A stretch of DNA of 32,773 nucleotides from Candidatus Desulfatifera sulfidica (GCA_014381505.1 JACNLK010000031.1:1-32773); one strand, 5' to 3'; counted from the first letter of the stretch, positions 5,944-14,548 are shown. Made by a program: numbers and translations. The notes: generated from the letters alone by a model not told the origin.

Positions 5944-7014
5944 ATGGAATGTCATAAGAAGACGAAAGAGATCCCTGCAAGGCAACACAGATCAAAAAAA
6001 GAATTGTTGGTTCAGAAGCCTTCCTTGCGGTATAATGCCACAACGAGGTACAGCTCATTAATCCTGACCACCCGGAAAACAATGCCCCTCCCCACTGCAC
6101 TTCTCTCAATGCTGCGTCTAATCGGTTTTCTCCTGCTGATCCCCGGACTCCTGGCTCTCAGTGGTTGTGACTCCCGCTCAGACCTCCCTCCGGCCAACAC
6201 CAATCAAAAAGTCATTGACCTGAACGACTTGACGCAACTCCCACCCAGCCCGCCATCTCCAAGGAACAAAATTATTCGGGTGGCCGTTGCCGCTATCCTC
6301 TCCCCCTCCGGAACCCTTGATTCCTACAGTCCATTACTGAAATACCTGGAAGAAACATTCAAGCAACCGGTCCACCTGGTCCAACGCAAAACCTATCAAG
6401 AGATCAACGGACTCCTGGCCCAAGGCAAGGTGGATGTTGCCTTTGTCTGCACCGGCGCCTACCTCGAAGGGATCAAGAAGGGAATCATGTCTGCCATAGT
6501 GGTCCCGCAGATCAACGGCCGCACCACATATCAATCCTATATCATCAGTCGTACAGACTCAGCTATCCACACCTTTGATGACCTGCAGGATAAGGTTTTT
6601 GCCTTTACCGATCCCATGTCCAACACCGGCCACCTTTACCCTCTCTCCCTCCTGGACAGTCGAACAGAAACCCCAAGCTCTTTTTTTAATCGTACTATTT
6701 TCACCTACAGCCATGATCGTTCCATCTACGCCGTGGCTGATGGTGTGGCCGACGGAGCCGCTGTGGACAACCTGATTCTGGCCCACGCCCAACAACGTCA
6801 GCCGGAACTGATTAAGCGCCTTAAAATCATTCAGGAGTCACCAGAATACGGCATCCCGCCGGTGGTCGTTCCCAACCAGCTCGCGCCCGAGAAAAAAAAA
6901 CAATTCGAGCAATTCTTTCTCAACATTCACAACCAGGAAGATGGCCGCCGCGCTCTCAAGAGTCTGGCCATCCAACGCTTTGTCAAACCAGATCTCAGCC
7001 TCTACGATTTCTAA
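5944..7014 (+). CDS. PhnD-like periplasmic oxyanion-binding lipoprotein, probable sensor component
   Basis: Lipobox LLALSGC; PhnD-superfamily pattern IRVAVAAILSPSGTLDSYSPLLKYLEETF...GKVDVAFVCTGAYLEG...FTDPMSNTGHLYP. True start is probably ATG 6082 or 6109, since the first 46 residues do not resemble a signal peptide. Immediately followed by a histidine kinase gene. Confidence 0.85.
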   Translation: MECHKKTKEIPARQHRSKKELLVQKPSLRYNATTRYSSLILTTRKTMPLPTALLSMLRLIGFLLLIPGLLALSGCDSRSDLPPANTNQKVIDLNDLTQLPPSPPSPRNKIIRVAVAAILSPSGTLDSYSPLLKYLEETFKQPVHLVQRKTYQEINGLLAQGKVDVAFVCTGAYLEGIKKGIMSAIVVPQINGRTTYQSYIISRTDSAIHTFDDLQDKVFAFTDPMSNTGHLYPLSLLDSRTETPSSFFNRTIFTYSHDRSIYAVADGVADGAAVDNLILAHAQQRQPELIKRLKIIQESPEYGIPPVVVPNQLAPEKKKQFEQFFLNIHNQEDGRRALKSLAIQRFVKPDLSLYDF

Positions 7015-8466
7015 ATGATATCCCCTGCACCTGAACAAACCGCTCTGCCAACCCGACGAAGAAATATCAAAGATTGGCTCTTCAGCATCCCGCTCCGTTT
7101 CAAGATCATGGGGCTGGCCGTAGGACTGGTGGCCCTGTTTGGAACAGTCACAATCTTCAAGGTCCATGATATCCTGCTCAGTAACATGAAAACCCTGCTC
7201 AAAGAGGAGAGTCTTTCCGTGGCCAGAGAGATGTCTCCTCATGCCCGGGAGCACATCCTGATCAATGACATCTACGGCCTTACCCGGCTCCTCCGGAGCA
7301 CTGTCGAAAATCGACCAGAGGTCCATTACGCCTTTGTCGTTGACAATGACCATGAAATCCTTGCCCACTCCTTCACCAATGGTTTCCCAAAAAATCTGAT
7401 CAAACAAATCCACAAAGACAACCTCCAGGAACAAATCCTGCCCCTGAGCACCACCGAAGGAATTGTCTGGGACAGCTTTTACCCGATCCCCGAGACCGGC
7501 TTCGGCGGTGTACGGGTCGGGGTGAGCGAGACCCTCATGCAAGAGCAGATCAGCGCCTTTTTACGCTCTTTATTTTTGCATACCCTGGGAGCGATTCTGG
7601 TCGCTCTGGTCCTGTCAATTTTACTGGCCCATATCCTCACAAGACCCATCAAGCAGCTCCTTGATGCCACCCAGGCCCTGAAACAGGGTAATTATGATTG
7701 TATCCAAACTAAGTTTCTCCAGGACGAAGTCGGCCATCTGGTTCGAGCCTTCAATGACATGCTCCTGCAACTCCAACAGGCCGAGCACGATCGACAGGAT
7801 AAGGAAAAAATCCGCAAGGAGTTTCTCCAACGCATCATCGGCACTCAGGAACAAGAACGCAAACGAGTGGCCCGTGAACTCCATGACCAGACCGGACAGG
7901 CCCTGACCTCGATCATGGTTCGCCTGAAAATGCTCGACAAGGCCCAACCCACAGAACTCAGCCGGGAAATCGCCGCCCTGAAGGAGACACTGATCGAAGA
8001 GATAGGGGCCCTCCACCACCTGGCCCTTGAGCTGCGCCCCAGCGTCCTCGATGACATGGGCCTGGCTCCTGCACTGGAACATTACAGCGCCCAGTTCCAG
8101 GAACGCCACGGAGTGGAGATAAAACTTGTCACCATTGACATGGAAGACAAACGGGCCGATCTCTGCGTCGAGACCTGCATCTATCGCATTATCCAGGAAT
8201 CGTTGACAAATGTGGCCAGACACGCCAACGCCCGCCACATCAGTATTCTGCTCGAATGGCGACAAGATCAACTTCGTGGCATCATAGAAGACGACGGCAA
8301 TGGCTTCAACCCGGAAGGCGTATCCAAAGAGCGTCTCGGCCTTTACGGCATGGAAGAAAGGGCCCGCCTTCTTGGCGGCACGCTGAAAATAGACTCGGAA
8401 CCCGGTGAAGGCACTCTGGTTTCCTTCAACCTCCCTGCTCAATGCATCTCGGAATGTTATGAATAA
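7015..8466 (+). CDS. NarX-type (HisKA_3) sensor histidine kinase with periplasmic sensor and HAMP
   Basis: Two TM segments; HAMP (LTRPIKQLLDATQALKQGNYD); ERKRVARELHDQTGQALTS phosphoacceptor; ESLTNVARHANA and DDGNGF ATPase motifs. Confidence 0.93.
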   Translation: MISPAPEQTALPTRRRNIKDWLFSIPLRFKIMGLAVGLVALFGTVTIFKVHDILLSNMKTLLKEESLSVAREMSPHAREHILINDIYGLTRLLRSTVENRPEVHYAFVVDNDHEILAHSFTNGFPKNLIKQIHKDNLQEQILPLSTTEGIVWDSFYPIPETGFGGVRVGVSETLMQEQISAFLRSLFLHTLGAILVALVLSILLAHILTRPIKQLLDATQALKQGNYDCIQTKFLQDEVGHLVRAFNDMLLQLQQAEHDRQDKEKIRKEFLQRIIGTQEQERKRVARELHDQTGQALTSIMVRLKMLDKAQPTELSREIAALKETLIEEIGALHHLALELRPSVLDDMGLAPALEHYSAQFQERHGVEIKLVTIDMEDKRADLCVETCIYRIIQESLTNVARHANARHISILLEWRQDQLRGIIEDDGNGFNPEGVSKERLGLYGMEERARLLGGTLKIDSEPGEGTLVSFNLPAQCISECYE

Positions 8467-9139
8467 TAAACCACTCTCGATTGTTGTGGTCGATGACCAC
8501 CCCCTGCTCCTCTCCGGTCTCTGCATGCTGCTCAACAGTGAAGACGATATGGAGGTCATCGGCCAGGCCGAAACATTTAACACGGCCCTGACTCTGATTA
8601 CCGAAACTCAGCCGGCCATCGTCCTGCTGGATATCACCTTGCACGACCAAAGCGGACTGGACCTGATTCCAAAGATCCATCAACAGGCACAAGAGACGCA
8701 GATCATCATAATGACCATGCACGAGGACCGGAAATATCTTGAAAAGGCCTTGGACCGGGGAGCGCGCGGCTATGTCCTGAAAAAAGGACTGGATGTCGAT
8801 CTGCTCTACGCCATCCGCTCAGTTGCCCGCGGTGAGATCTTTATTCAGCCATCCATGGTCAAAACCCTCATCACCGGCGAAGACACGGCCGTTCCCACTC
8901 CTGAAATCAATCATACAACCCAACTCTGGAATACCCTGAGCGAGCGGGAACAACAAGTCGTCCTCGGCGTGGCCCGTGGCTACACCAGTAAGGAAATTGC
9001 CGGAAAATATTTTCTCAGTGAAAAAACAGTCTCCACCTATCGTTCCAGAGCAATGATTAAACTTGGTCTGGACAGCCGGGCGGAACTTGTGGAATTTGCC
9101 ATGACCCTTGGCCTGCTGCAAAATAAATCCTCAACCTGA
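8459..9139 (+). CDS. NarL/FixJ-type response regulator
   Basis: MNNKPLSIVVVDDHPLLLSGL; VLLDITLHDQSGLD; LuxR-type HTH (LSEREQQVVLGVARGYTSKEIAGKYFLSEKTVSTYRSRAMIKLG). The ORF track starts at 8405; ATG 8459 overlaps the kinase stop and gives a canonical receiver start. Confidence 0.92.
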   Translation: MNNKPLSIVVVDDHPLLLSGLCMLLNSEDDMEVIGQAETFNTALTLITETQPAIVLLDITLHDQSGLDLIPKIHQQAQETQIIIMTMHEDRKYLEKALDRGARGYVLKKGLDVDLLYAIRSVARGEIFIQPSMVKTLITGEDTAVPTPEINHTTQLWNTLSEREQQVVLGVARGYTSKEIAGKYFLSEKTVSTYRSRAMIKLGLDSRAELVEFAMTLGLLQNKSST

Positions 9140-9445
9140 TCATTGTCCCCCTGTTCCTGTTCCCCTACTCCCCTTCCTTTCAGCCAGCTTGTCAGATTTT
9201 ATCCTACAACCTCCCATCATACCCTTCCCAAAGCCCCTACACGAAGTCACAGTTTCACCGATTTACTTTCCCGATACCAGAAGGCATACTTTGTAGCAGA
9301 TATGAATAGATGAACAGTGCCGTCTGATGGACCAGGCCATGGTCGGATAACTGCTCACAATCAGGCATCTGGCAGGATTGATTCAAGGAAGCGGTTTCTC
9401 GACAGGACCAACGGCTCACCCCAGAAACACTGAAAGGAGGAATAC

Positions 9446-11992
9446 ATGAAAATCAAACGAAGAGACTTTTTAAAACTCAGCGTAGCCACTGGCGCTGCCG
9501 CAACTGTTCTGGGGAAGCCGACACTCAATGCCTTTGCTGCAGCAAAATCCGGAGCAGTCGCCGGTGAGGCAGCCGGTCAATGGAAACCCTCCACCTGTCA
9601 GGGCTGCACCACCTGGTGCCCGGTGGAAGTCTTTGTTCAGGACGGACGGGCGGTCAAGGTGCGAGGAAACCAGCATTCGAAACAGAATGATGGTTTTGTC
9701 TGTCCGCGCGGTCATCTCTCCCTTCAGCAAATTTATGATCCCGACCGGATCAAAAGACCAATGAAACGAACCAACCCCAAAAAGGGTCGAGGTGTCGATC
9801 CGCACTTCGTACCCATCTCCTGGGATGAGGCCCTCAACACCATCGCCGACAAGATGATGGACCTGCGTAACGCCGGTGAACCCGAAAAATACTGCCTGAT
9901 GCGCGGCCGCTATACCTACCTGCGTGATGTCATCTACGATGCCATGCCCAAAATTTTCGGTTCCCCCAATAACATTTCCCATAGCTCCATGTGTGCCGAG
10001 TCGGAAAAATTCGGCGCCTATTATACTGAAGGAAAATGGGCCTACCGCGACTACGATCTGGACAAGACCAAATACCTTCTGGTCTGGGGCTGCGACCCGG
10101 TGAGTTCCAACCGGCTGGTCCCAAGCGCTATCAAGCGTCTGGGGAATGTTATTGACCAGGCCACTGTAGCTGTGGTTGATCCGAAACTGAACAACACGGC
10201 CGCCAAGGGCCATGAATGGCTGCCAATCAAGCCGGGAACAGATGCGGCGGCGGCCCTGGCCATTGCCCATGTCCTGCTCAGCGAGGGATTGTGGTTCAAG
10301 GGCTTTGTCGGTGATTTCACTGACGGCAAAAACCGTTTCAAAGCAGGACAGAAGGTCGACGAATCAACCTTCGCTGAAAAAGAGACCAACGGTGTGATCA
10401 AGTGGTGGAATCTGGCAGTCAAAGACATGACCCCGGCCAAGGCCGAAGCACTCTGCGACGTTCCCGCAGATCAACTCATCCGCGTGGCCCGCGGTATGGG
10501 CAAGGCCGCACCCGCAGTCTGCGTCATGATGGGACCTGGCGCTGCCATGCACGTTCGCGGTGGCTACAACGCCATGTCAGTCCATGCCCTGGCTGGACTG
10601 GTGGGCGGCTGCGATAATGAGGGTGGTTCATTGCAGACAGCCAAGATCCCAGTCAACAAGATGCCCAAGGATATCCTCGAGAAATATCAGGATGATCTGG
10701 CCAAGAAACACTCCAAGATGCCCAAAATTGACCAGCGCGGCACCCTTGCCATCCCGGCCCTGGCCAAGGGGAAATCAGGAGGTGGTGTCTGCGCCAACAA
10801 TGTGGCCAACGGTATCCTCAATAAAGACCCCTATGAACTGAAGATGGTCGTCGGCTACATGAACAACTTCGTCTTCTCCAACAACGGCACAGAGCGCTGG
10901 GAAAAGGCCCTGGAGCAGATCGACTTCCTGGTCCACATCACCACCAATGCCGCTGAGTTCACCATGTTTGCCGACATCGTCCTGCCCGGGGCCATCTCAA
11001 AGTACGAGAAATACGGCTTCATCAAGACCAAGGCCAATAGATACGCCACCTGCTCCCTGCTTCAACCGGTGGTGGAGCCCATGTGGGAGTCCATCAACGA
11101 TGAGACGGAATTCCCCTTCCGCATCGCCGAAAAACTCAAAGAGCGTGGCTTTGCCAATCTCTACGACGGCCTGCGGGCCATGTATCCCGATCCCGAGACC
11201 GGCAAGAAGGCCAACACCGCCAAAGAATTCACCGAATATACTCTCAAGTACTACACCGCCCCGCTCTGGGACGGCAAAAAGGACGTGGGCGGTGACAAGA
11301 TCAGCGGCTGGCAGGAAATGCTTGAGCGCGGCATGTGGAATTCCAAGCCCTACAAGTACAGAAGTCAATGGGGCGGTAAGTTCAAGACCGTGAGTAAAAA
11401 ATTTGAATTCTACAGCGAAACCTTGAAAAAGGCCCTGAAGGGCCATGCGAAGAAACACAATGTCAGCGTGGACACGGTGATGGCCAAGAGTAACTACACG
11501 GCTCGCGGCGAGCTGGCCTTTGTTCCCCATTATGAAGAGCCTTTCCGCAATGGTGACATGAAGAAATACCCCTTTACTTTTGTGGATTATAAGTCCCGTC
11601 TCAACCGCGAGGGACGAAGCCAGAATGCCCCCTGGTACTATGAATTCAAACATGTTGACCCAGGCGATGTGGGCAATCAGGATTCCCTGAAGATCAACCC
11701 TGTGGACGCCAAAAAACTTGGTATCAGGGACGGCGACCAGGTCAGAATTACTTCCATGGGCGGCAGCGGCGTCTGTACAGCCAGACTTTGGGAAGGCATC
11801 AAGCCCGGAACGGTCGCCAAGTCGTTCGGTCAGGGCCATTGGGCCACCGGTGATACGGCAGCCGCCGACTTCAAAAATGGCGTAGAGCGAGGATTCAACA
11901 ACAACACCATCATCCCCTGGGACATTGATCGACTTTCCGGCTCCAACGCCAGGAATGGCGGCCAGGCCGTGGTCAATATCAAAAAAGTCTGA
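9446..11992 (+). CDS. Tat-exported molybdopterin oxidoreductase catalytic subunit, ArrA-like (respiratory arsenate reductase clade or close relative)
   Basis: Twin-arginine signal MKIKRRDFLKLSVATGAAATVLG; N-terminal [4Fe-4S] motif CQGCTTWC...CPRG; RGRY motif (CLMRGRYTY); SPNNISHSSMCAESEKFG with candidate Mo-ligand Cys; YRDYDLDKTKYLLVWGCDPVSSNR; strong SD aaaggagga. Substrate is not provable from sequence. Confidence 0.85.
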   Translation: MKIKRRDFLKLSVATGAAATVLGKPTLNAFAAAKSGAVAGEAAGQWKPSTCQGCTTWCPVEVFVQDGRAVKVRGNQHSKQNDGFVCPRGHLSLQQIYDPDRIKRPMKRTNPKKGRGVDPHFVPISWDEALNTIADKMMDLRNAGEPEKYCLMRGRYTYLRDVIYDAMPKIFGSPNNISHSSMCAESEKFGAYYTEGKWAYRDYDLDKTKYLLVWGCDPVSSNRLVPSAIKRLGNVIDQATVAVVDPKLNNTAAKGHEWLPIKPGTDAAAALAIAHVLLSEGLWFKGFVGDFTDGKNRFKAGQKVDESTFAEKETNGVIKWWNLAVKDMTPAKAEALCDVPADQLIRVARGMGKAAPAVCVMMGPGAAMHVRGGYNAMSVHALAGLVGGCDNEGGSLQTAKIPVNKMPKDILEKYQDDLAKKHSKMPKIDQRGTLAIPALAKGKSGGGVCANNVANGILNKDPYELKMVVGYMNNFVFSNNGTERWEKALEQIDFLVHITTNAAEFTMFADIVLPGAISKYEKYGFIKTKANRYATCSLLQPVVEPMWESINDETEFPFRIAEKLKERGFANLYDGLRAMYPDPETGKKANTAKEFTEYTLKYYTAPLWDGKKDVGGDKISGWQEMLERGMWNSKPYKYRSQWGGKFKTVSKKFEFYSETLKKALKGHAKKHNVSVDTVMAKSNYTARGELAFVPHYEEPFRNGDMKKYPFTFVDYKSRLNREGRSQNAPWYYEFKHVDPGDVGNQDSLKINPVDAKKLGIRDGDQVRITSMGGSGVCTARLWEGIKPGTVAKSFGQGHWATGDTAAADFKNGVERGFNNNTIIPWDIDRLSGSNARNGGQAVVNIKKV

Positions 11993-12013
11993 TCTTAAAA
12001 GGAGGAGTGCCAC

Positions 12014-12775
12014 ATGACGCAATATGCGATGATCATAGATTTACGGAAATGCGTAGGTTGCGGGGCATGCGCCCTGGCCTGTAAAACCGAGAACAACACG
12101 GCCCTCAGGAGCAACGGTCAGACCCATAACTGGGCCGACTTCATCCATGAGACCACCGGTAAATTCCCCAAAACCGGCTACAAGACCACGCCGGTTCTCT
12201 GTAACCACTGCAGCAATGCGCCCTGTGTTGACGCCTGCCCGGTTGAGCCCAAGGCCATGTTTAAGACCAAGGACGGCATCACCATGCACAACGATGAGCG
12301 TTGCATCGGTTGCAGGGCCTGTCAAGAGGCCTGCCCCTACAGCATGGACGAGGTCAAACGGGACGGCGCTTACGGCGAATACAGCGTCATCAGCTACAAT
12401 GAGGAAGGAGAACCCTACCAGGCCTTATTCAGTGACAGCAAAGAGCTGATCCCTGGCTGCACCACGTCAGGGACTCATATTGCCAGGGCTGCCGGAGCAA
12501 CTCCACCGCACCTGACCAGATATGGTCATCCGGAATACGACGATACACGCCGCTCTGGCATCGTTGAAAAATGCTATTTCTGCGACCACCGGGTCAAAAA
12601 AGGGGATCAGCCCTATTGTGTGGAATCCTGTCCGGCCGGCGCACGTATCTTCGGCAACATACGTGATTCAGGCAGCACCGTTGCCAAACTTCTGAAGAAA
12701 CACAAACCGTCGGTTCTGAAACCTGAGGCAGGGACTCAACCGAACGTCCTCTATATCGGGGAGTATGGCACCTGA
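12014..12775 (+). CDS. ArrB/PsrB/DmsB-type electron-transfer subunit with four [4Fe-4S] cluster motifs
   Basis: CVGCGACALACK; CNHCSNAPCVDACP; CIGCRACQEACPY; CYFCDHRV...CVESCP; SD aaaggaggagtgccacATG; 22 bp after the catalytic subunit. Confidence 0.92.
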   Translation: MTQYAMIIDLRKCVGCGACALACKTENNTALRSNGQTHNWADFIHETTGKFPKTGYKTTPVLCNHCSNAPCVDACPVEPKAMFKTKDGITMHNDERCIGCRACQEACPYSMDEVKRDGAYGEYSVISYNEEGEPYQALFSDSKELIPGCTTSGTHIARAAGATPPHLTRYGHPEYDDTRRSGIVEKCYFCDHRVKKGDQPYCVESCPAGARIFGNIRDSGSTVAKLLKKHKPSVLKPEAGTQPNVLYIGEYGT

Positions 12776-12867
12776 TCACCACAGAAGGCATCCACCCGGG
12801 CAAACGTGGTCATGTACAGATCAAGCATGATCACGCTTGCTTGCCATTCAACAGGAACATTGTAAGC

Positions 12868-13545
12868 ATGGACCCCATTTCAAACATAGTACAGCTCAGT
12901 AACTGCTTTAGACTGCTGGCCGCCTGTTTTTACCAACCGGACACAGAGCTCTTCAAAGAAGAAGAGCTCTGTGCCAAACTCCAAGAGAGCTGCGTGACCA
13001 TCTGTCCGAAGGCCATCCCCCCAATCCAGGTCATGGCCATGGCTCTGCAAAAAACAAGTGACCAAGATATGCAGGTCACTTATGCAGAGCTATTTGTCGG
13101 CCCCTTTGAGCTGAAGGCATCTCCCTACGGTTCCACCTACCTGGACCTGAACAGGCAATTGATGGGCGACAGCACCATGTGGGTGAAAAAACTCTACCAA
13201 CAGGCCGGGCTGGAAGTCGACATCCAGCAACCACCCGACCATATCGCCATAGAACTGGAGTTTCTCTCGCATCTCTGGTCTCTTGAGGCAGAGTCTTTAC
13301 TGGCCGGGAGCCCTGCAAAGGCCGCAAAGGTACAAAACGAGAGACAAGTCTTTCTAGACTCCTGTTTATTACCCTGGATTCAGGAACTGACCGACAATAT
13401 CCGCAGCGGTACCGACTCCCTTTTTTACCGCGGTCTCGCCGACTGCCTGGATGCTGTTGTTCAGCAGCTCCCGGTTCAGGAAACAACACCATTCAATCAT
13501 GAACGGCGAGCCGCAGGTGATCATGCTTCTCCAAGCCCTGTTTAA
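12868..13545 (+). CDS. TorD/DmsD-family molybdoenzyme maturation chaperone
   Basis: FRLLAACFYQPD; YAELFVGPFELKASPYGSTYLD; PPDHIAIELEFLSHL. The ORF track starts at TTG 12841; ATG 12868 is preferred. Confidence 0.85.
   Translation: MDPISNIVQLSNCFRLLAACFYQPDTELFKEEELCAKLQESCVTICPKAIPPIQVMAMALQKTSDQDMQVTYAELFVGPFELKASPYGSTYLDLNRQLMGDSTMWVKKLYQQAGLEVDIQQPPDHIAIELEFLSHLWSLEAESLLAGSPAKAAKVQNERQVFLDSCLLPWIQELTDNIRSGTDSLFYRGLADCLDAVVQQLPVQETTPFNHERRAAGDHASPSPV
12942..12973. repeat. 13-bp perfect inverted repeat with 6-nt loop inside the torD-like CDS
   Basis: CACAGAGCTCTTC aaagaa GAAGAGCTCTGTG read directly. Confidence 0.9.
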
Positions 13546-14548
13546 TCGTTTTATTACAGCGACCACAGCAACCATAAGCTTTGATCAACGACGCTGTCTG
13601 CGGGCCCGGCTGAACACCAATGAATGTCGGGTCTGCCTTGATGTCTGCCCCAGCCGTGCCCTCAGTCTTAGCAACCAAACAGTTCAGTTTGACAACTCAC
13701 GCTGCACATCCTGTCTTCGTTGTCTCAGCGTCTGCCCCAACGACGCCCTGACCGACAGCATCGATCTGGGCCATCTGCTCCATCAACTGGCTCACAAATC
13801 CGGGATAATCATATCTTGCGATCAAAGCAAAACCCATGACAATCAACTGACCATCCCCTGTATCGGACTGCTGTCAGAGCCTCTGCTGGCCGCCATGAAT
13901 GCCGTCAGCCAAGGAACGTTTCACCTGGACGTGGAACACTGTCCCCGCTGCCGCAACCAGCATACGCTCTGCAATCTGCATCAGATAAATCAGAAACTGC
14001 AGAAACAATCCAAGGACAGGGGGGGAGAATTTCGCCTGCTCTACTGGACTGAGCAGGATCGTAAAAAGAAAGACCACAGCTTGAATGAACGACGGGTCTT
14101 TTTATCGTTTACCGGAAAATCCATTGCCAGGAACAGCAAGAAGGCCGTCAGGCAAGCAACGAACAACCCCGAGGCAACACCCCCAGATCAAAAATCTACG
14201 CTCAAACAACCGACCAAAATACAGAAAGTCCTGCGAACGGCTATGGACTTATTGCCCCCGGATAGAACTGGGGAACGGGATATACTGCGCTCTTATTTCT
14301 TCACCCTGCAGGCAGCTCCACACTGCGACTGTTGTCCACGCTGCAGTGGAATGTGCCCTACCGGGGCCTTAAAGCGTACAACAGAGAACGGCAGCAGACA
14401 GCTGAACTTTACCAGCTCATCCTGTAGTGGATGTGGTCTGTGTATTGCGTTTTGCAAGAAAAAGGCCCTTCAGATCCACCAGGGGTATGCGAACGATCCC
14501 CGCTTGACGGTTCAGCTGATTCAACAGACAGCGCCGCCCACCGCGTAA
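13499..14548 (+). CDS. Polyferredoxin-like protein with N- and C-terminal paired [4Fe-4S] motifs and a Cys-containing middle domain
   Basis: CLRARLNTNECRVCLDVC; CTSCLRCLSVCPN; HCPRCRNQHTLC; CDCCPRCSGMCP; CSGCGLCIAFC. No obvious signal peptide. The ORF track starts at 13451; ATG 13499 or 13523 more likely. Overlaps the torD-like 3' end. Confidence 0.8.
   Translation: MNGEPQVIMLLQALFNRFITATTATISFDQRRCLRARLNTNECRVCLDVCPSRALSLSNQTVQFDNSRCTSCLRCLSVCPNDALTDSIDLGHLLHQLAHKSGIIISCDQSKTHDNQLTIPCIGLLSEPLLAAMNAVSQGTFHLDVEHCPRCRNQHTLCNLHQINQKLQKQSKDRGGEFRLLYWTEQDRKKKDHSLNERRVFLSFTGKSIARNSKKAVRQATNNPEATPPDQKSTLKQPTKIQKVLRTAMDLLPPDRTGERDILRSYFFTLQAAPHCDCCPRCSGMCPTGALKRTTENGSRQLNFTSSSCSGCGLCIAFCKKKALQIHQGYANDPRLTVQLIQQTAPPTA

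Follow-up and report, generated by a model that had tools for sequence, protein, structure and literature searches.

A 32,773-nt stretch of the genome of Candidatus Desulfatifera sulfidica (GCA_014381505.1, JACNLK010000031.1:1-32773; hereafter the window) contains seven genes that run in one direction on the plus strand, in the order arrX-arrS-arrR followed by arrA-arrB-arrD-arrE. The first three encode a predicted sensory cassette, arrXSR, and the last four a predicted respiratory arsenate reductase together with a TorD-type chaperone and a polyferredoxin-like protein. Related loci from public genomes, designated below by L numbers, were used for comparison.

Gene content of the arr locus

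The layout given in a preliminary description of this DNA was confirmed, apart from the probable start positions of three genes. All seven open reading frames (ORFs) were found at the positions and on the strand reported there, as were the TAA|ATG junction of arrX and arrS at 7012-7017, the 8-nt overlap of arrS and arrR at 8459-8466, and strong Shine-Dalgarno sequences of arrA (AAAGGAGG) and arrB (AAGGAGG). The gap of about 300 bp before the reductase genes measures 306 bp (9140-9445). The flanks of the locus are ordinary, with divergent umuDC-like genes to the left and, to the right, a gene for a transporter of the AI-2E family.

The gene arrA (9446..11992) encodes a molybdopterin enzyme of 848 amino acids, predicted to be exported via the twin-arginine translocation (Tat) system. 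It matches the NCBIfam model NF041714 over the full length with 1137 bits, the next-best model being PhsA (291 bits). The match to the solved Shewanella ArrA (6cz7) scores 974 bits over 798 residues, compared with 160 for thiosulfate reductase. In the phylogenetic tree, a single ArrA set (SH-aLRT support 99) unites the window protein with 46 relatives and with Shewanella ArrA and leaves Cereibacter ArxA, a TtrA-like enzyme, and a PhsA/DmsA-like enzyme outside. This tree has long outgroup branches and a single ArxA reference (Cereibacter) and was obtained by a quick search; the placement therefore also draws on the full-length matches and on a sequence motif. The R/KGRY motif is used for recognising As(V) reductases (PMC11283718). 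It reads LMRGRYTYL in the window, and all members of the ArrA set carry it as [RK]GRY. Judged by its sequence, the 848-aa protein is, as the preliminary description had suggested, an ArrA, and not PsrA, PhsA, or ArxA; arsenate reduction is its predicted activity.

The product of arrB (12014..12775) is a 4Fe-4S electron-transfer subunit matching NF041715. For the TorD/NarJ-type chaperone gene arrD (12868..13545; PF02613, 101 bits), the start context favours ATG 12868 over the listed TTG 12841. The last gene, arrE (13451..14548), codes for a polyferredoxin-like 4Fe-4S protein with Fer4 clusters; the alternative starts 13499 or 13523, which overlap arrD, may be used instead of 13451. In the relatives, arrA is likewise followed by arrB, arrD, and usually arrE, and the order arrABDE has been named for Geobacter sp. 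OR-1 (PMC11283718). Homologues of Acr3 and/or ArsC are encoded near arrA in 10 of the 38 long loci, which favours arsenic as the substrate.

Several variants of the reductase region were observed among the relatives. In five loci (L024, L040, L041, L069, and L073), a gene for a MOSC-domain protein, with a possible role in molybdenum cofactor handling, is located directly 5' of arrA, mostly between arrR and arrA; the domain was confirmed by Pfam in L069, and the other four carry homologues. An NrfD-like gene, possibly encoding an ArrC membrane anchor, is inserted between arrR and arrA in two NarL-type loci (L137 and L138) and is missing from the window. L072:717-5785 carries an amino-terminal fragment of arrA that contains an in-frame stop and, behind it, an operon for a cytochrome c7, a ferredoxin, and a TtrA-like enzyme, which looks like a replacement of arr or a misassembly of the contig.

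The gene arrX (6082..7014) encodes a periplasmic lipoprotein of the PhnD fold (PF12974, 198 bits). A start at 6082 appears more likely than the listed 5944, since the corresponding position is the start of the homologue from the same genus, and the residues that follow form a signal peptide with the lipobox LSGC. Among PDB entries, ArrX is the best match (6x6b, 208 bits; 208/204), followed by AioX (122), PtxB (76), and PhnD (49). The AioX pocket residues Y88, C106, Y131, S161, S163, H192, and D210 (AioX numbering) correspond to Y, C, Y, S, T, H, and D in the window protein, the replacement of S163 by Thr being conservative and the sole change. These data support the earlier assignment to the AioX/ArxX/ArrX family of sensors, with arsenate as the predicted ligand.

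The membrane-bound histidine kinase ArrS (7015..8466) is composed of sCache_3_2-like, HAMP, HisKA_3, and HATPase_c domains. The response regulator ArrR (8459..9139), of the NarL/FixJ type, consists of REC and GerE domains only and lacks an AAA+ domain. Close homologues of ArrS were detected in 36 of 258 genomes of the order; a homologue with 77% identity is encoded in the same-genus genome G001. The linkage of the sensor genes with arr, noted earlier for the window, recurs in the gene neighbourhoods of the relatives. In the G001 locus (L084:6538-7468), arrX is broken across two reading frames, by either assembly error or decay. Loss of arrA from G001 was considered and set aside: the contig stops at base 75901, shortly beyond arrR and the promoter and short of the expected start of arrA, so that a true absence looks the same as an assembly break.

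Candidate operator and promoter

A palindrome, TGTNNG-N7-CCTACA, is shared by the NarL-type loci and lies just 3' of arrR (element 1; TGTCAGATTTTATCCTACA at 9190..9208 in the window). The motif was drawn up by eye from the loci collected first, and a further 15 loci, retrieved subsequently, served to test it. With up to two mismatches, it occurs in 10 of the 11 discovery loci; in the remaining one, L096, a copy with one mismatch overlaps the arrR stop. In the out-of-sample set, it was found in 10 of 15 loci with no more than one mismatch (shuffled mean 0.06) and in 13 of 15 with no more than two (shuffled mean 0.82). Copies with at most one mismatch were absent from all 36 loci with another or no nearby regulator. 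The genome contains just one further exact match (C71:1628-1646), which is located inside a ribosomal-protein gene and was taken as a chance occurrence.

A second conserved block around GAAWTCA (element 2; CTACACGAAGTCACAGTTTCACCGATTTAC at 9237..9266) is also shared by the NarL-type loci and leads into the -35 box. Eight loci have the two elements 52-54 bp apart, and three have them 20-21 bp apart, so that the two spacings are separated by about three helical turns. In the window as well as in G001 and L026, element 2 is closed at a fixed offset by TTTACW-N17-CATACT; for all other loci, the -10 box was assessed by eye alone. The window copy, TTTACT-N17-CATACT (9262..9290), is the predicted sigma70-like promoter of arrABDE. 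Element 1 resembles in shape (TCAGG-N6-CCT) the FixJ-like motif tcaggtttttccctga reported upstream of arrA in Chrysiogenes arsenatis (PMC5908839). Element 1 is thus likely the operator of ArrR, upstream of the sigma70-like promoter.

Probable exchange of regulators and reductases

Near-identical arrABDE operons occur behind at least three types of regulator. The type with a HisKA_3 kinase and a NarL regulator is represented by the window, L024, L026, L040, L041, L071, and L073. A two-domain PhnD protein is combined with a HisKA kinase and an NtrC regulator in L029, L031, L039, L048, L060, and others, and a single PhnD protein with the same partners in L027, L067, and L054. In L043 and L066, the PhnD protein is followed by a HAMP-Sigma54-HTH_8 protein in which kinase domains were not found. 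These four types require nine changes on the ArrA tree.

The promoters differ as well. A -24/-12 site, usually at -79 to -123, was detected upstream of arrA in the NtrC-type loci (shuffle p <=0.015 in 15 of 16) but in none of seven NarL-type loci, with no significant site in the window. Between NarL and NtrC loci, the promoter class thus matches the regulator type. No -24/-12 site was identified within 350 bp of arrA in L043 and L066, whose sigma54 activator is of the kinase-less kind. Their gene order (L066:6752-8977, L043:1059-3263) is an arrX-like gene, a gene for a membrane protein with HAMP, Sigma54_activat, and HTH_8 domains, one for a short receiver-like protein, and arrA; this arrangement possibly represents a one-component arsenate switch that operates without a histidine kinase. 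In L029:5171-6880 and similar NtrC-type loci, ArrX has two PhnD domains in tandem, the second of which lacks the pocket Cys and Asp.

The cassettes, in turn, are found in front of different enzymes. In about eight genomes (L095, L096, L097, L139, L144, L150, L154, and L160), the NarL-type arrXSR and element 1 lie in front of genes for TtrA-like molybdoenzymes, which are about 1085 aa long. With 508 bits to TtrA against a cut-off of 1750, these enzymes are not TtrA proper. In L095:10735-14028, L096:2415-5669 (minus strand), and L097, the TtrA-like reductase gene is accompanied by genes for cytochrome c7 and/or an NrfD/QrcD-like protein. The NarL-type clade of the sensor tree (support 100/99) mixes members linked to arr with those linked to the TtrA-like enzyme; among the loci seen in the order, about 16 lead into ArrA and about eight into the TtrA-like enzyme. 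The single-domain NtrC-type cassette precedes arr in L027 and L067, and a PhsA/DmsA-like enzyme of 843-851 aa in L098, L104, and L105. The latter loci (L098:7998-16793, L104:8855-17855, and L105) contain the cassette and genes for a NapC/multiheme cytochrome, a ferredoxin, the PhsA/DmsA-like enzyme, and TorD.

Taken together, these patterns make it fairly probable that arrXSR is a portable oxyanion-sensing module that carries its own operator and promoter from one reductase to another, and that arrABDE has likewise moved among NarL, NtrC, and kinase-less sigma54 outputs, the promoter class changing to match between NarL and NtrC. Both the travelling cassette and the joint change of regulator and promoter go beyond the open literature found in the library searched, which is incomplete.

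Predicted function and comparison with known systems

We interpret the locus, which belongs to a sulfur-cycle bacterium of the Desulfobulbales, as a respiratory arsenate reductase operon, arrABDE, with a dedicated regulator, arrXSR, that responds to an oxyanion, and assign this reading a probability of about 0.8. In the proposed mechanism, the lipoprotein ArrX would bind periplasmic arsenate and contact the sensor domain of ArrS, which would phosphorylate the activator ArrR. The latter would bind TGTNNG-N7-CCTACA and the adjacent conserved block upstream of the sigma70-like promoter and switch on arrABDE. ArrD would load the cofactor, and the Tat-exported ArrAB would reduce As(V) to As(III) with electrons presumably supplied by a quinol dehydrogenase encoded elsewhere in the genome. 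Two NapC/NirT-like and four NrfD-like matches were found outside the locus; none was assignable as the electron donor.

Several observations weigh against this interpretation. The score of ArrA (1137 bits) is below the curated cut-off of NF041714 (1600, an NCBI naming threshold and not a biochemical criterion), and that of ArrB (237 bits) is below the cut-off of NF041715 (450). The cluster contains neither a membrane quinol-oxidising subunit nor ars genes, and no Acr3 above the cut-off was detected in the 94% complete genome (a single weak match, 80 of 283 bits), although arsenate respiration would produce arsenite. The earlier view of the module as self-contained is therefore not supported. 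The clade of the window ArrX, although of the same family, is not sister to C. arsenatis ArrX in the sensor tree, and element 1 was not found in L134 and L156. Finally, the TtrA-like enzyme behind the same cassette implies that an ArrX of the NarL-type clade need not be specific for arsenate. Recent acquisition of the locus as an island was likewise rejected: the GC content shows no difference that would point to it (53% vs 51%), and arrXSR adjoins the same umuDC genes in G001.

The linkage of this sensor clade with TtrA-like molybdoenzymes is also a ground for supposing that the principal substrate is not arsenate but antimonate, selenate, or a sulfur oxyanion, which ArrX would then sense. 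Shewanella ArrA is cited as an antimonate reductase (PMC13284237), and an arrA-bearing Desulfurivibrio couples sulfur oxidation to Sb(V) reduction (PMC11283718). Placement in the ArrA clade, the RGRY motif that marks As(V) reductases (PMC11283718), and the ars genes near arrA in some relatives argue against this supposition, which we regard as unlikely. Still less probable is that arrXSR is a phosphate/phosphite-type sensor that neighbours arr by chance and exerts no control over it. The PhnD/PtxB fold would fit such a role, and C. arsenatis ArrX has an affinity for phosphate too, 150-fold lower than that for arsenate, which it binds at 1 uM (PMC5908839); however, the cassette is repeatedly linked to arr or another reductase, the operator between arrR and the reductase is conserved along with it, and the promoter type follows the regulator type. 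ArrA and ArxA are sister families, and XSR is possible with both (PMC5908839), so that an ArxA-kind arsenite oxidase working in the oxidative direction was considered as well. The tree placement and the RGRY motif led us to reject this identity: Cereibacter ArxA is not part of the ArrA set and has no such motif, and the window is devoid of the second ferredoxin and NrfD genes of the Cereibacter arx cluster. We give the oxidative alternative hardly any weight.

A putatively arsenate-responsive arr operon is of interest, as arsenate respiration releases arsenic into water and the arr switch is poorly known outside a few model strains. For the NarL-type branch, our survey yields a candidate operator and a predicted promoter that can be put to the test; for the other branch, it predicts control by sigma54. 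It also indicates that an arrX-like gene by itself does not reveal the substrate of the neighbouring enzyme; the ligand of the sensor linked to the TtrA-like reductase would tell whether sensor specificity follows the enzyme.

The locus belongs to a kind already known from C. arsenatis, that is, a FixJ/NarL-type ArrXSR with an arsenate reductase operon. The arrXSR-arrAB locus of that organism (Badilla et al. 2018, PMC5908839) shares with the window the PhnD-fold sensor, the kinase, the CitB/FixJ-type regulator without AAA+, and the reductase; nothing on ArrX regulation beyond this study was found in the open literature searched. A NarL-type output, which the preliminary description took for a different wiring, has thus already been reported. 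Both loci have a site 5' of arrA, FixJ-like in C. arsenatis, according to the published description (PMC5908839), and element 1 here. The window differs in that its ArrX is not sister to that of C. arsenatis, arrAB is followed by arrD and arrE, and many loci contribute to the definition of the conserved palindrome. In Geobacter sp. OR-1 and related sulfur oxidisers (PMC11283718), arrAB, the TorD-like arrD, the 4Fe-4S protein gene arrE, and the R/KGRY motif are likewise present, but ars genes stand where the window has arrXSR. AioXSR and ArxXSR also combine a PhnD-family sensor with a two-component system adjoining a molybdoenzyme; these systems, however, employ NtrC/AtoC-type regulators and sigma54 promoters and serve arsenite oxidases, whereas the window has a NarL/FixJ-type regulator and no -24/-12 site. 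The NtrC-type arr loci of the Desulfocapsaceae, such as those of Desulfofustis glycolicus (L031) and Desulfopila aestuarii (L049), encode ArrA proteins of about 70% identity in the same arrABDE order; unlike the window, they possess a tandem-PhnD ArrX, a HisKA kinase, and a sigma54 regulator and promoter.
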